DNA from: Ruminococcus sp.
GTDB taxonomy: Bacteria > Bacillota > Clostridia > Oscillospirales > Acutalibacteraceae
Length of the DNA: 64,000 nucleotides
Direction of reading: 5' to 3'
Assembly (NCBI GenBank): GCA_017404145.1
Contig: JAFRCW010000009.1
Span: 1 to 64,000 of the forward strand
The notes under the pieces: generated by a model
Told to the model about the DNA's origin: nothing
The model's input: the letters and a program-made list of their open reading frames with translations, nothing else
Databases searched by the model: none
Shown here: piece by piece, positions 37,204-61,960 of the stretch
How positions within the stretch are numbered: the stretch's first letter is position 1
Layout of the letters: each line of letters begins with the position of its first letter
Position numbers and translations under genes: made by a program

Positions 37204-40200
37204 TCAGACGATCTGAGCGCCGATATCATAGGGGATATCAATATGCGCGAGCCATTTTTGGATATAGGTGGCGTCAATGACAGATACTACGCTATCGTTG
37301 TCAACATCCGCAGCAGTTTCGTTAAAACAATTCACCGGGATAGACGCGCGAACCTTTTGAATAGCGGTTGCGTCGATAACCGAAACGACACCGTCACCGT
37401 CGACGTCGCCGAGGATGTATTCTTCGTCCGGCTGAGTAGGCAGATCCGGAAAACCTTGTGTAGGATATTCATCTAGACTGATGAAAGAAAAACCGTGGTT
37501 TTCTGCGTAATTCTGTGCCGCGGAATAATTATAACCATAAATGGTAAAGTTTTCTATGGTTTCGTAATAACTGATATGTTCATCGTCTTCTGACGGAACA
37601 AAAACATATCCTAATGTACATTCTCCGATCGTTTCAACACTGCTTGGTATGGTGATACTTTTTAGTGAAGGACAATCAGAAAAAGCGTTAGTGTTTATGG
37701 TTTTCAAGGTTTGTGGTAAATTCACTTCATTTAGATTCGGACATCTGCTGAATGCACCGCTTCCGATTGATTCAGCACCCTCTATAATAACCTTTTCCAG
37801 ATTTGGACAGCTATCAAAGGCGTATGACCAAATGGTTTTAACAGAGGCGGGTATAATAACGGTTTCGATGGTTTCTTTGCTATACAAACCGCTTATTTCG
37901 GTTACCGCTATGTCGTTGATTTCAGAGGGAATAACGATATTGCTATCATTGCCTTCGTAGTCGAAAATGCAAATTGTTCCATCTTCATTTATAAAACCGG
38001 TGAATCCATTCAGCTCAACATATTCAGGTTCGACATACGGAGGATAAACGTAAACCGGTTTGGAAAGAACTACGGCTCCATCCGCTGATTGAATGGAAAT
38101 GAATGTTTCTCCTTCACTCACAGCAGTCAGTAAACCGGTTTCGTCAATTGTAACGATGTCTTCGTCATCGCTGCTCCAAATAACTGTTTGATCCGCTTCT
38201 TCGGGATATACGGTCGCTGAGAGTTGTCTTGTCTCTCCGACTTCAAAATAAAGCCAATCATCCTCAAGTACGATATCAAGCGCTTCAACAGCAGGCTCCG
38301 ATACGGTGACTTCACATCTGGTCATCAGACCGTTGGAGGTCATTGCGGAAATATAGGCTGTACCCAGACCGACTGTTGAAATGATACCATTTTCATCCAC
38401 TGTAGCTACAGCATTGTTATCACTACTCCAAGTAACTGTTTGTTCAGCGTTAAGAGGCAGAATAGTTGCGCAGAGTTGTTTTGTTGCATCGACTTCCAGA
38501 TTCAGTTCATAATTATCAAGTTCAATCAGTTCAGGTGTTACGCTTTCGTATTCGCAAATGTATATCATTTTTTGCTGGTCGTAAATCGAACCGGATCCGC
38601 TTGTACCATTCAGATCATTCCATTCTCCTGCTTTTACACTCAGCCCATAATCAAACGAATACATCGAAGCAAACATTTCTTCATTTCCGGGCTCATTCAT
38701 ACTCCAGTTTGTATAAGTCAGAGGTTCATCGGTTATCCATTCAAATTCTTTTGTATCGGCGTTTCGTTTCAAGCCTAACCAACAATTCGCGTTCTGTGAA
38801 GATATCATTGAAAGCACAAAATCGTTTTCCGCTTTATCTGAAACGGTCACAAGATGTCCGCCTTTGCTTTCGCACAGTTCTTTAGCCGTTTCCCAGCTTA
38901 CAGCATTATTATAAAGTTCATATGTTTTTCCGTTATATTCAGAAGTCGAAACAGGATCATAAGAAACATCCTTTTCCCAATGAGCATATACTCTTGTTGA
39001 GTATTCAAAAACAGGTGTTTCCGATGTGATTTCGGTACCTCCGACCTTTGCTGTGTACCAACCGTCAAAAAGATAACCTTCTCTCTCGGGAATCGGTAAG
39101 TTATCATAACAGCTGCCGATATCATAAGAGAGGCTTTGCCATACCGATTGTGTCTCAGGGGTTACATTGGTTGAAGCGCTGGTATCTGAATCATACAGAT
39201 AAAGATTGTTAATATAGAATGTACCCGCTTTATCAAAGTATGAATATATCATATGATCGGAATACTGGTTTTTGTCCATATCAATGATATACGATTTCCA
39301 TGAAGTGGAAAGTGTGATTGTCTTGTTTGTACTTAACCATCCCCATCTTAGATACATCTTAGCGCCATCAACAGATGATTTTGCCCAGAAGCGTAATCTC
39401 ATTTTTTTAGTATCACCTGATAAAGAATTGATACCGTTGCTATCTGTGGCAAGTCTTCCCTTATTGGTATCGGTTTCAAAGCGGAGATGCTTTTTGTTTG
39501 CGCCCGCACTTGATCCGACAATTTTTAAGCTGCTTTGACCGTTAAGCTTTTGTGTATTATCTACGGATACGTTGTATACACTGGTATCCATACTTTTGAT
39601 ATAGGTTGAGTAGTTTTCATCCAATGCTCCGCCTAATATGTAATTACAGCCGCTGTAATTCAAATAGAAATTAAGTGAAGTACTGTTTGGCTTCCAAATC
39701 GGGTAAAAAGTAAAAGTATCATTGTCGACGCTTGTCCACGCTTTACCGAATGTATATGTTTTGCCGGGTGAATAGATGCCCTTTGTATAACCGTTGTTTT
39801 GAATATTTCCCGCCGTCTGCCATTCCAAGGTACTGTTTACATACCATTTGTTGTCAGACTTTCTTTGAACATTATATCCCGCAAATCGATAGCCATCGCA
39901 TTTGAATGCGCATTCGGGAATCGAATAGCTTTTTCCTACGGTTACTGTTTCCGATGGCATACTGCCGGTTCCGCCGTTGGCGTTAAAAGATACTGTATGA
40001 GTTACTATTTTGTTTATTGAAAACCGTTGGGCGGTGCTGTTATTCTTTTTGTATAACTGTATATTTGTGCCGGCTGACATAGTACCGCCGGTAATATCTA
40101 CTGCATAATCGGGATTTTTCTTCGATAATAAATAGTATCCCGATCCGTTTTTGACGATATACCATCGTTGAGCGTCGGTACCGTTGCTATTATACAGTTG

Positions 40201-41541
40201 TATGTCTGTCCCGTTTGCGATCGTTCCGCTCTTTATATCCAAGCATTTATTTCGTTTTACATTTGTGATTTTGTAAGCGCTTCCGTCCTTTTCGAACAGC
40301 CACTTTTGATAGTCGCTGTATTCCATAGCATAGAGCTTAACATTATCATTACCGGTACCGGTTACCGCCAGACTGGTTGCGCCGCTCGGAACGATATTGG
40401 CGTAGAATTTGTTTCCGAGGTCTTGTGGACTTATCATAGAGTAAATATATGTTTCATTTTCAGGATTTACAAAATCAGAATTTGGCCAAAAGTTTTTGCA
40501 AATTTCAAAATGAAGATGTGGTCCACTTGATTTTCCTGTTGTGCCAACCTTTCCCAAAACTTGGCCCATATTTACTCTTGCACCTTCATATACATTGCTA
40601 GGTATGCTTCCGCCTTGGAAGTGACCATAACAATAAAATCTACCATCATCACCTTCGATTGCTACACCGGTTCCGTATCCATAACAAATTGGTTTATGAT
40701 CAGAATTTGGGTGTTGTTGAGTACAAGTGAATTTTTTTCTAACAGTTCCTCCAATGGCAGCTCTAATTGTAGCACCATCAATGTCTGCGTCTCCTATATC
40801 GATTGCTTTATTATTATGATCATGAAAATGAAGACGTATGGTAGTATGTCCTTCAACAGGCCATAATAGTGTTACTCCTCCACTCTCAGCCAAATCATCT
40901 TCAGCACCGGATGATGCCATATCTTTTGTATTAGTAGCTGTCGGTACAATATTCGCATAGAACTTAGCACCGAGGTCGACAGGAGAAACAGAAGGACTTA
41001 AGTCTTTGATATGGATATAGCCGGTTGGGCTGGATGCGTTGATAGTTTTTGTGTGGTAACTATAATCACCATTTGGATATGCATTTGTAGCCCAATTATA
41101 TTCTTCGATGAAGACAGTTCCGTCGTTGTTTACTTTTGCTACCCAAGCAACGTGATGACCGTCGTTTGGTGACCACCAAGCAATCGAGCCGACAGCAGGT
41201 ACTTTATCTACTTTTATTCCTACCTCTTGCGCGGCGTATCCCCAGTTCCTGCCATTTCCCCAATGGACATCTTTATAGTAGTTGTGAAATGCAACGCCAT
41301 TAGTTTTGTTCAATCTCCATGCACAAAAAGATGTGCAGGTTCCCTTTACAAATCCCCATTCATCGTAGTACTCTGTACCGGGATCAACATGATAAGGATA
41401 GTCATCAACAGCGGAATCTGAAATATCTATTTCTGCTCTGCTCTCAGCTTCATCTGCTGTTTCAGCATGAACCAAAATAGGTAAAGTGCAGAAAAGCAGT
41501 ACAACAACCAATAAAACAGATAAACACTTTTTCATTTTCAT
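37204..41541 (-). CDS. Large secreted CHAP-M23-lectin-LRR protein with type I dockerin
   Basis: A 1445-residue secreted protein. Approximate order: signal peptide (1-26); CHAP amidase (55-145, Cys in GTCTSFCAWRLN, His in GHHVAWVAK); M23 metallopeptidase (225-355, HNNKAIDIGD and GPHLHFEI zinc ligands); ricin-type lectin with QxW-like repeats (395-510); InlB-type beta-grasp repeats (515-630 and 815-855); a CBM-like jelly roll (645-795); C-type lectin (865-985); two Big_2 domains (990-1145); BspA-type leucine-rich repeats (1180-1365); dockerin (1378-1445, GDVDGDGVVSVIDATAIQK and ADVDNDSVVSVIDATYIQK). It should cut peptidoglycan while bound to glycans and cohesin. One of the ncRNAs lies upstream. 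Confidence 0.9.
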   Translation of the reverse strand: MKMKKCLSVLLVVVLLFCTLPILVHAETADEAESRAEIDISDSAVDDYPYHVDPGTEYYDEWGFVKGTCTSFCAWRLNKTNGVAFHNYYKDVHWGNGRNWGYAAQEVGIKVDKVPAVGSIAWWSPNDGHHVAWVAKVNNDGTVFIEEYNWATNAYPNGDYSYHTKTINASSPTGYIHIKDLSPSVSPVDLGAKFYANIVPTATNTKDMASSGAEDDLAESGGVTLLWPVEGHTTIRLHFHDHNNKAIDIGDADIDGATIRAAIGGTVRKKFTCTQQHPNSDHKPICYGYGTGVAIEGDDGRFYCYGHFQGGSIPSNVYEGARVNMGQVLGKVGTTGKSSGPHLHFEICKNFWPNSDFVNPENETYIYSMISPQDLGNKFYANIVPSGATSLAVTGTGNDNVKLYAMEYSDYQKWLFEKDGSAYKITNVKRNKCLDIKSGTIANGTDIQLYNSNGTDAQRWYIVKNGSGYYLLSKKNPDYAVDITGGTMSAGTNIQLYKKNNSTAQRFSINKIVTHTVSFNANGGTGSMPSETVTVGKSYSIPECAFKCDGYRFAGYNVQRKSDNKWYVNSTLEWQTAGNIQNNGYTKGIYSPGKTYTFGKAWTSVDNDTFTFYPIWKPNSTSLNFYLNYSGCNYILGGALDENYSTYIKSMDTSVYNVSVDNTQKLNGQSSLKIVGSSAGANKKHLRFETDTNKGRLATDSNGINSLSGDTKKMRLRFWAKSSVDGAKMYLRWGWLSTNKTITLSTSWKSYIIDMDKNQYSDHMIYSYFDKAGTFYINNLYLYDSDTSASTNVTPETQSVWQSLSYDIGSCYDNLPIPEREGYLFDGWYTAKVGGTEITSETPVFEYSTRVYAHWEKDVSYDPVSTSEYNGKTYELYNNAVSWETAKELCESKGGHLVTVSDKAENDFVLSMISSQNANCWLGLKRNADTKEFEWITDEPLTYTNWSMNEPGNEEMFASMYSFDYGLSVKAGEWNDLNGTSGSGSIYDQQKMIYICEYESVTPELIELDNYELNLEVDATKQLCATILPLNAEQTVTWSSDNNAVATVDENGIISTVGLGTAYISAMTSNGLMTRCEVTVSEPAVEALDIVLEDDWLYFEVGETRQLSATVYPEEADQTVIWSSDDEDIVTIDETGLLTAVSEGETFISIQSADGAVVLSKPVYVYPPYVEPEYVELNGFTGFINEDGTICIFDYEGNDSNIVIPSEINDIAVTEISGLYSKETIETVIIPASVKTIWSYAFDSCPNLEKVIIEGAESIGSGAFSRCPNLNEVNLPQTLKTINTNAFSDCPSLKSITIPSSVETIGECTLGYVFVPSEDDEHISYYETIENFTIYGYNYSAAQNYAENHGFSFISLDEYPTQGFPDLPTQPDEEYILGDVDGDGVVSVIDATAIQKVRASIPVNCFNETAADVDNDSVVSVIDATYIQKWLAHIDIPYDIGAQIV

Positions 41542-41604: not shown

Positions 41605-41645
41605 TTTCGGAACGATGTGGGCATCGTTCCCTACATCCCTCTGCA
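41605..41645. repeat. Dispersed palindromic repeat (GTAGGG-hairpin type), copy 1
   Basis: TTTCGGAACGATGTGGGCAT and so on to TCTGCA; AACGAT pairs with ATCGTT. It matches the element at 47890-47931 outside the stem-paired changes. Confidence 0.6.
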
Positions 41646-41663
41646 AACGGTAGTTTTACGAGG

Positions 41664-41701
41664 GGGATTGCCACGGCTCCTATGGGAGCCTCGTAATGAC
41701 A
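41664..41701. repeat. Dispersed GCGAGG...GTGGCAATC repeat, copy 2
   Basis: GGGGATTGCCACGG, GCTCC/GGAGC hairpin, CTCGTAATGAC: the inverted form of the repeat at 37054. Confidence 0.55.
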
Positions 41702-41726: not shown

Positions 41727-41944
41727 ACAAAAAGGCGTACAATCCGAAGACTGTACGCCAAAAAACACGTAAGCTCCGAATCGTCGCCAAACAATTGTCA
41801 ACATAATAGCCTATAGGAATAATCATCCGTCAGGGATAGTTGAAATAGAGCATAGTGTTTTTATCCTATAGAATAAAAACACTATCCCCGCAACAGAATA
41901 GATTATTCCAAAATCAAACAAATATTCAGTTGACAATTGTTGGC
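41727..41944 (-). ncRNA. Unassigned structured RNA, copy 1
   Basis: A promoter (TTGCAA-17-TACGAT) starts a transcript of about 218 bases that ends in a GGCGTAC/GTACGCC terminator with a U-run. Nested stems: P1 GCCAACAATTGTCAAC with GTTGACAATTGTTTGGC; P2 GGAATAATC with GATTATTCC; P3 GGGATAGT with ACTATCCC; P4 a 13-base hairpin ATAGTGTTTTTAT/ATAAAAACACTAT. A bulge with GCTC can pair with GAGC in the 3' tail. A second copy at 61733-61925 keeps the core and changes P1, P2 and the terminator in compensating fashion. It lies upstream of the large CHAP-M23 gene and divergent from an XRE gene. Confidence 0.75.
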
Positions 41945-41950
41945 TCTTTT

Positions 41951-41979
41951 ATCGTAACATATACAAAGGACAATTGCAA
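41951..41979 (-). promoter_or_regulatory. Promoter of structured RNA copy 1
   Basis: TTGCAA, 17 bases, TACGAT on the minus strand, then AAAAGAGCC at the start of the RNA. Copy 2 has the same two hexamers and spacing. Confidence 0.75.
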
Positions 41980-60721: not shown

Positions 60722-60929
60722 GCCATCAGGGACTCGAAGCGACCGTGCCGAGGATGAAGCGCGAAGTCGCTGAAAACCGAAGGTAAAAACAGTCCGGGGA
60801 ACAGGGAGAGCGCAGATGTCACTTGTCGAATCTGACCTTGGCAACAAGCGAGGTAGAAGATGTCGTGTAGGTGAAACATACTGATGGTCCGCTTTCTCGA
60901 TTTAGCAAACGTCATCAGGGACTCGAACC
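60722..60929. repeat. Segment flanked by inverted copies of the tRNA 3' end
   Basis: GCCATCAGGGACTCGAA (60722-60738) and CATCAGGGACTCGAACC (60913-60929) are 17-base reverse complements of the tRNA T-arm/acceptor region, and are direct repeats of each other. They bound about 174 bases with no credible gene. This resembles attachment-site remnants of integration at the tRNA. The second copy forms the end of the DUF4230 gene. Confidence 0.65.
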
Positions 60930-61610
60930 GTTATTTGCGTTAGAATCCCTTTCAACTTCTTTTGCTTTTTTCTCTAATTCCTCCATTGAGTCGAAAAACT
61001 TCATCTCGTAGTCTTTTACAGAGCCTTCCAGAATTCCTTTAATCAAAGTTTGTGACTGTTCATTTGCCAAATCCAGAATTCCTGTTTCCGTTGCGTCCTC
61101 CGCTGCAATCTCTTCCGCGTATTGCAAAGCTTTTGCCATATCTGCTTTTTCATCCGCATTAAATAAAGTAAAGCTTTCATCAAAGAACTCGATGGAGTCA
61201 CTGTTGACTTTCACATCCAGTATTTCTGATTTTGGTATATAGAAATATACTGTTTTGTGAGTATTGTCAACACAGACACCAACGTTTTTGACGTCAATTC
61301 CTGCTTTCACAGTGGCGGTATACACCATTACGAAATCACCCTTGGTCAGGACAGGGATCCCTTCATCCGAATATCTTGCCAACCCTCTGAAATTCACTTT
61401 GGCGCTGATCAGCTCGTTTGCTGCTTGAAGCTTTCCTTCTATCATTGTGTTGGATAGCTCCGCTTCACTCTGACCTAATTGTAATGAGAAAAGATCCTGA
61501 CTCTTACCTGAGCAGCTGTTTATAACAAAAATCACAGTTCCGCAGATTAAAATAACACATATTAAAATAATGATGATTTTTATGATACTTATACCTTTTC
61601 CTTTTTCCAT
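60915..61610 (-). CDS. DUF4230-family membrane-anchored protein
   Basis: The start at 61610 has AAAGGAG upstream; the product is 231 residues. A basic N-terminus and one membrane helix (IIKIIIILICVILICGTVIFVI) are followed by an outside domain of the DUF4230 type (LISAKVNFRGLARYSDEGIPVLTKGDFVMVYTATVKAGIDVKNVGV, then KTVYFYIPKSEILDVKVNSDSIEFFDESFTLF). Function unknown. The last residues NGSSP and the stop are encoded by the tRNA-derived repeat, so the C-terminus has been remade. It lies downstream of structured RNA copy 2. Confidence 0.82.
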   Translation of the reverse strand: MEKGKGISIIKIIIILICVILICGTVIFVINSCSGKSQDLFSLQLGQSEAELSNTMIEGKLQAANELISAKVNFRGLARYSDEGIPVLTKGDFVMVYTATVKAGIDVKNVGVCVDNTHKTVYFYIPKSEILDVKVNSDSIEFFDESFTLFNADEKADMAKALQYAEEIAAEDATETGILDLANEQSQTLIKGILEGSVKDYEMKFFDSMEELEKKAKEVERDSNANNGSSP

Positions 61611-61621
61611 AGTAAACTCCT

Positions 61622-61720
61622 TTAGAATATCCAAATAATGAATCCTCGAATAACGACGAACAATAGAATGAGTGCGATTACGATCAGTATGATTTTTATG
61701 ATTAGTTTCTTGATATACAA
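61622..61720 (-). CDS. Possible hydrophobic micropeptide (about 32 aa)
   Basis: Right after the terminator of RNA copy 2, AAGGAGG is followed by a frame with no ATG (TTG at 61720, or non-standard ATC at 61714) encoding YIKKLIIKIILIVIALILLF and a short tail to FIIWIF. It is a strongly hydrophobic helix with a basic start, ending 11 bases before the DUF4230 gene's ATG. The strong ribosome site argues for translation; the absent ATG argues against. Confidence 0.35.
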   Translation of the reverse strand: MYIKKLIIKIILIVIALILLFVVIRGFIIWIF

Positions 61721-61732
61721 CACCTCCTTAAA

Positions 61733-61925
61733 AACAAAAAGACGCACAACCGGAGTCGTGCGTCAAAAAACACATGCTCGGTAGTCGCCAAACTAATTCA
61801 CATATCACGCTTCGCCAAATCTATCAGGGATAGCAGATAAGAGCATAGTGTTTTTATCAAATAAAAACACTATCCCCGCATAAAAATTGTCGAAGCAAAT
61901 CATATTCTTTTGTGAATTAGTTGGC
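61733..61925 (-). ncRNA. Unassigned structured RNA, copy 2
   Basis: About 193 bases from a TTGCAA-17-TACGAT promoter to a GACGCAC/GTGCGTC terminator with U-run. P1 GCCAACTAATTCAC with GTGAATTAGTTTGGC; P2 GCTTCG with CGAAGC; P3 GGGATAG with CTATCCC; P4 ATAGTGTTTTTAT with ATAAAAACACTAT. The bulge TATGCTC is complementary to GAGCAT in the tail, and AAAAACAC can pair with either GTGTTTTT of P4 or the GTGTTTTT just before the terminator. Core strings are shared with 41727-41944 while P1, P2 and the terminator covary. Downstream is the micropeptide frame and the DUF4230 gene. Confidence 0.75.
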
Positions 61926-61931
61926 ACCTTT

Positions 61932-61960
61932 ATCGTATCATATTCTTTCTGTCTTTGCAA
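61932..61960 (-). promoter_or_regulatory. Promoter of structured RNA copy 2
   Basis: TTGCAA, 17 bases, TACGAT on the minus strand, the same boxes as at 41951-41979. Confidence 0.75.

Follow-up and report, generated by a model that had tools for sequence, protein, structure and literature searches.

Riboswitches and attenuators of the strand-displacement type, such as the pbuE-type switches, lie in a 5' leader, where a structured domain is followed by an antiterminator and a terminator that exclude each other. The RNA family described here shares this arrangement and the logic of strand competition, but it has no known aptamer, and the competition would involve three strands, with a tail that copies the 5' strand of a hairpin. 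It also differs in the fixed position of its promoter and in its regulon of surface proteins.

The c-di-GMP riboswitches (GEMM-I and GEMM-II) are present in many copies per genome before surface-protein genes, sometimes in tandem. The family resembles them in this multicopy, sometimes tandem placement before surface-protein genes, but it has no Rfam match. As a general ligand c-di-GMP was rejected, since no GGDEF domain was detected in G000, G015, G031 and G033, genomes with 5-14 RNA matches each.

The 6S RNA (SsrS) is similar in its length of ~190 nt, its long rod with a closing stem and its own promoter; unlike it, the family precedes genes and has 11 copies in the source genome. The copies do not match RF00013, and a separate true 6S RNA is found at G000:C12:18482-18671. 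The EAR, put and LoaP-type RNAs are likewise structured leaders adjoining a terminator, whereas the family does not match EAR in Rfam and is locally complementary to its own terminator. LoaP-dependent antitermination was rejected, as G000 and nearly all relatives that carry the RNA have one NusG and no paralogue. T-box leaders are widespread in Firmicutes. They too are terminator/antiterminator leaders, but the family has no T-box match in Rfam and acts on neither aminoacylation nor amino-acid genes, judged from its targets.

The minus strand of the window, the whole 64,000-nucleotide stretch of Ruminococcus sp. DNA that was analysed, contains two such structured RNAs, at 41729-41979 (copy 1) and 61736-61960 (copy 2). 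Both have a common layout of a sigma-70-type promoter, a long closing stem, a conserved hairpin and an intrinsic terminator; the RNA of copy 1 would start at ~41945 and end near 41729. The TTGCAA-17-TACGAT promoters, the stems P1 and P2, the conserved blocks, the GCTC and GAGC motifs and the terminators named in the original prediction were all found on this strand in both copies. The parts are listed below, with scores from a covariance model made from 17 copies (R1) and a second model for wider searches (R2).

41951..41979, minus strand: promoter of copy 1, with the -35 box TTGCAA at 41974-41979, a 17-nt spacer and the -10 box TACGAT at 41951-41956
41756..41946, minus strand: leader RNA core of copy 1 (P1, P2, hairpin and tail); R1 153.6 bits, E 4.7e-30; R2 126.5 bits
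41930..41944, minus strand: 5' strand of P1 in copy 1, GCCAACAATTGTCAA, from folding and P1 covariation
41786..41801, minus strand: 3' strand of P1 in copy 1, TTGACAATTGTTTGGC, from folding
41873..41882, minus strand: strand a of copy 1, the 5' strand of the hairpin, GTGTTTTTAT, from folding and covariation
41848..41864, minus strand: strands b and c of copy 1; b is the 3' strand of the hairpin, ATAAAAACAC, at 41855-41864, and c is the bulge GCTC at 41848-41851
41760..41776, minus strand: tail of copy 1, GAGC at 41773-41776 and GTGTTTTTT at 41760-41768, which can pair with b+c in rivalry with strand a
41741..41782, minus strand: possible antiterminator of copy 1, GATTCGGAG at 41774-41782 with CTTCGGATT at 41741-41749; -16.1 kcal/mol when extended
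41729..41759, minus strand: intrinsic terminator of copy 1, GGCGTACAGTC/GATTGTACGCC and U tract; hairpin -16.7 kcal/mol
37207..41541, minus strand: gene 3' of copy 1, for a 1445-residue exported protein with CHAP, M23, ricin-type and C-type lectin, Big_2 (Ig-like), BspA LRR and dockerin domains
61932..61960, minus strand: promoter of copy 2, TTGCAA at 61955-61960 and TACGAT at 61932-61937
61761..61927, minus strand: leader RNA core of copy 2; R1 145.9 bits, E 1.9e-28; R2 117.4 bits
61861..61870, minus strand: strand a of copy 2, GTGTTTTTAT
61841..61857, minus strand: strands b+c of copy 2, ATAAAAACAC and GCTC
61765..61779, minus strand: tail of copy 2, GAGC and GTGTTTTTT
61736..61764, minus strand: intrinsic terminator of copy 2, GACGCACGAC/GGTTGTGCGTC and U tract; hairpin -15.0 kcal/mol
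60918..61634, minus strand: gene 3' of copy 2, for a 239-residue DUF4230 protein, membrane-anchored or lipoprotein-like

The predicted fold of copy 1 has an energy of -85.1 kcal/mol (z -9.3) and that of copy 2 an energy of -75.2 kcal/mol (z -7.5), and none of 200 shuffles equalled either. The opposite strand of copy 1 also scores with the covariance model (39.6 bits against 153.6 bits for the sense strand), because the element is a long palindrome. At 41640-41700 of the window, the interval from the RNA terminator to the gene 3' of it contains REP-like palindromes (CATTGCGAGG...GTGGCAATC), which are also present 3' of the element in L031, L033 and L034.

The element had been described as one of two copies, a number that proved too low. 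In a blastn search of 59 genomes, four clear copies were seen in the source genome and many in its relatives, while R1 recovered 11 sense copies in the source genome and matched 31 of the 59 relatives, some of which have up to about a dozen. R2 matched 122 of the 394 genomes searched at order level and 84 of the 391 at class level. In a phylum-wide sample of 299 genomes the source genome was the sole match, which also argues against false positives. A pattern search returned named matches mostly from rumen Ruminococcus and other Clostridia MAGs, together with a few taxonomically scattered ones that look like chance. The comparative tests were performed on 193 collected copies, from mostly uncultured genomes.

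Rfam 15 scans of both window copies at E up to 10, and scans of the relatives' copies at relaxed E-values, gave nothing relevant. No description of the RNA family was found in the passages of open-access literature covered by the search; an earlier unnamed listing, for instance in supplementary data of the human-microbiome RNA survey (PMC8040213), is possible. The two copies are members of a large, apparently undescribed RNA leader family in gut Clostridia.

Copies also occur in tandem, in runs of as many as four, at L195:865-1811 and at L039, L096, L103, L117, L121, L197, L199, L264, L277 and L294; every copy of such a run has a promoter and a terminator of its own. In genome G180 (L200, L202, L203), several contigs stop ~55 nt past the element at an identical sequence, TGAAATTGTCAAGAGAAAGTATACAATAAAAAA. 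This point falls midway through the expected terminator and could be an assembly break or an insertion.

The closing stem P1 (GCCAAACAAA.../...UUUGUUUGGC in many copies) shows compensatory variation, with CG, GC, UA and AU all occurring at one pair. The sequence of P2 is wholly different between copies while its pairing is kept, and the apical hairpin GUGUUUUUAU/AUAAAAACAC carries the GCUC bulge on its 3' side. Within P1, P2 and P3, 23 of 30 pairs have changed on both sides, with double changes in 246 cells against 70.5 after shuffling; in the class-level set the same was seen for 22 pairs (194 against 55.9 shuffled cells). The pairs are formed in 96.1% of cells, compared with 42-55% for slid controls, and as the alignments were fitted to the model, such absolute percentages lean upward and the slides and shuffles provide the fair comparison. 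This comparative evidence establishes P1, P2 and P3 as real helices and bears out the earlier view of a structured RNA with covarying stems under selection. Outside the switching strands the conserved unpaired bases are few, unlike in many small-molecule aptamers. The lengths of P1 and P2, compared in a fold-back test, show a weak negative correlation, probably due to boundary assignment.

On the 3' side of P1 is a conserved tail, ...CGGAGC nnn GUGUUUUU..., followed by the terminator. Its GAGC complements the GCUC bulge and GUGUUUUU complements the adjoining A-rich strand, so that the tail and b+c could form a nearly continuous helix of ~12-15 bp in rivalry with strand a. The block GTGTTTTTTG, listed earlier as one of several conserved words, is indeed conserved but is more than that, being a near-copy of the 5' strand of the hairpin that is able to pair with the same A-rich strand. 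In copy 1 the duplex of the tail with b+c has a calculated energy of -15.9 kcal/mol, compared with -9.2 kcal/mol for a:b, and in copy 2 the values are -16.8 and -9.2 kcal/mol.

Across the family, the tail pairs better with the b+c of its own copy than with that of permuted copies (-16.66 against -14.12 kcal/mol, z -11), in a comparison where permutation removes relatedness only partly. The independent class-level set, which was not used to form the idea, gave -17.49 against -14.68 (z -8, 0 of 2000 permutations), again with relatedness partly remaining. The GCTC:GAGC pseudoknot that had been proposed from the window alone is supported as a predicted interaction. The tail is similarly matched to its own terminator, at the 5' half and the loop (-13.99 against -11.60, z -11; in the class-level set -15.71 against -12.66, z -8.4), while control regions gave z between -2.9 and +1.3 in the first set and between +0.5 and +2.1 in the class-level set. 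Pairs between the tail and b+c are formed in 93-95% of cells, as opposed to 30-65% in slid controls, and column counts show that b changes jointly with both a and the tail.

The U5:A5 block common to a:b and tail:b hardly varies and thus lacks covariation, and in the fixed alignment roughly one third to two fifths of the copies do not form one of the four column pairs of the GCUC:GAGC helix. In the sub-lineage L083 and L144-L146 the 5' strand of the hairpin is lost and a tail:b helix of ~14 bp persists, as in the pairing of GAGUUUGCGUUUUU with AAAAACGCAAAUUC. The comparison of copies demonstrates that the A-rich strand b, together with GCUC, can pair with either a or the tail, and that the tail can pair instead with the 5' half and loop of the terminator.

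A U tract follows in 184 of 193 copies. Over 177 copies the energies of the antiterminator and the terminator, -14.4 and -13.9 kcal/mol, are nearly equal, which fits what is expected of a switch. The corresponding values are -16.1 and -16.7 kcal/mol in copy 1 and -9.4 and -15.0 kcal/mol in copy 2, and copy 2 may therefore lean to termination. In a check for upstream ORFs or leader peptides, an AUG was found before the U-run in 97 of 193 copies.

Both promoter boxes are present in 83% of the 193 copies and in 8% of shuffled upstream regions. The nearest downstream ORF lies on the same strand in 137 and on the opposite strand in 32 of 169 cases, at a median of 80 nt past the element; for some copies, no same-strand gene lies close by. 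Signal-peptide-like N-termini, called by a simple hydrophobicity rule and not by a trained predictor, were found in 68 of 99 downstream proteins and in 101 of 537 other genes of the same loci (odds ratio 9.5, p=4e-22). The downstream Pfam domains comprise BspA LRR, dockerin, ricin lectin, CHAP, M23, NlpC/P60, SLH and copper amine oxidase N-terminal domains, with a few regulators (PadR, BlaI-type, LytTR) and zinc-ribbon proteins. Judged from position, orientation and domain content, most copies are cis leaders, and their same-strand genes mostly encode exported surface proteins. Small proteins of 65-80 residues with a common ..A..AYxAGW..-like motif are encoded 3' of the elements in L103, L111 and L196.

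In L116:5001, L118:1001, L121:1001, L138:1027 and L240 the tail and terminator are replaced by an alternative 3' module, nGCGATGnnnTTAGCGGAAAA(n)AATCGAATAGGATAyA, which is also found in L239 and L241 without the P1-P3 domain. It is followed by a terminator-like hairpin of diverse sequence, with no close same-strand gene, and copies with the nGCGATGnnnTTAGCGGAAAA module may be stand-alone RNAs that belong to this system. Another replacement for the 3' part, GTCGTTAAGGACAGT..CGAGAGTAGCATAA with a GAGCCGAG terminator, is nearly identical in three species (L107:1001, which is C56:99353 of the source genome, L052:3806 and L244).

Each copy probably makes up the 5'-terminal part of an mRNA leader and acts in cis as a transcription attenuator, by a riboswitch-like strand exchange that controls the terminator. 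The RNA is the 5' leader of a same-strand gene and has an intrinsic terminator with a competing antiterminator, the latter supported by comparative evidence; the family is provisionally classed as an attenuator, and the name riboswitch is not claimed for it. The stand-alone, two-copy non-coding RNA of 190-220 nt that the original prediction implied is not supported: position, orientation and the genes downstream indicate a cis-acting leader, present in many copies, with an attenuator. Any short RNA would then result from termination within the leader. A minority with a different 3' end do look stand-alone.

A trans-acting small RNA or a protein-sequestering RNA (6S-like or CsrB-like), with its own terminator and placed between genes by chance, is an unlikely alternative reading of the family. 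It would agree with the promoter at a fixed distance, the own terminator, the tandems of up to four copies (L195) and the minority with another conserved 3' module and no close same-strand gene, but not with the same-strand bias of 137 to 32, the short distances and the enrichment of exported proteins. A tail complementary to its own terminator would be purposeless in a pure small RNA, and the genome has its separate 6S RNA. Rather less credible still is a mobile or repetitive element (MITE-like or REP-like) that carries promoter and terminator by chance, a reading given very little weight. The copies are multiple, sometimes tandem and often near contig ends; however, their central arms are wholly different and yet paired, the flanks differ among the copies compared, and searches of 72,556 plasmid and 50,697 phage records gave no match, while a single viral contig was matched by pattern.

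A U-A-U triple helix between the hairpin and the U-run of the tail, as a stability or ligand-binding element in which strand a is not displaced, is also improbable. The near-invariance of U5 in a, A5 in b and U4-5 in the tail, in both the order-level and class-level sets, would be explained by such a triplex. Neighbouring positions, however, change by Watson-Crick logic in all three strands, the tail is antiparallel to b, which suits pairing and not an ordinary Hoogsteen triple, and L083 and L144-L146 keep the tail:b helix without the 5' strand of the hairpin. A processive antitermination element of the put or EAR type, with a modified RNA polymerase that passes this and later terminators, appears quite improbable: copy-by-copy complementarity of tail and terminator points to local antitermination, EAR is present in Rfam and does not match, and a LoaP-type NusG paralogue is lacking, with a single NusG encoded by nearly all of the relatives. 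Such an element would nevertheless account for a structured RNA at the start of transcription, directly 5' of a terminator, and for P1 bases conserved beyond base pairing.

In the preferred reading, that of a cis-acting attenuator, a:b excludes tail:b, tail:b excludes tail:terminator pairing, and the latter excludes the terminator, so that a:b with the antiterminator would correspond to continued transcription and the tail:b pseudoknot with the terminator to a stop. The hairpin a:b would form first while RNA polymerase moves on. As suggested by the order of the strands, GAGC of the emerging tail would then gain a toehold on the GCUC bulge, after which GUGUUUUU would displace strand a from b to give the pseudoknot. 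With the tail so occupied, the terminator would fold and transcription would stop (OFF). A signal that holds a:b together or masks the GCUC bulge would leave the tail to form the antiterminator with the 5' half of the terminator, and the surface-protein gene would be ON. The sensor domain would consist of P1, the AAUA internal loop and P2; the trigger might be a small molecule, a protein or an ion, and the direction given here for the response is conjectural. The geometry speaks against this mechanism in one respect, as the tail must pass P1 (~14 pairs) and P2 (~17 pairs) to reach the bulge, so that the RNA has to bend sharply at the AAUA internal loop.

More tentatively, with somewhat less than an even chance, the family could be an orphan riboswitch class widespread in gut Clostridia. 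Its toehold-mediated three-strand exchange would sense a cellular signal and co-ordinate the surface and secreted proteome (BspA-type LRR and dockerin proteins, lectins and wall hydrolases), also where c-di-GMP is absent, and some copies with the other conserved 3' module in place of the terminator would be stand-alone RNAs of the same signalling system.

The two window copies and their relatives would add a large, hitherto unclassified RNA regulatory family, with about a dozen copies in some genomes and a presence in many families across one bacterial class. The three-strand design would be a natural example of strand-displacement control, backed by comparative sequence and testable by simple mutations. 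In gut and rumen bacteria, some of which have dockerin proteins of the fibre-degrading type, the family appears to control both the surface and the secreted proteins, and its regulon is coherent enough for a ligand search.
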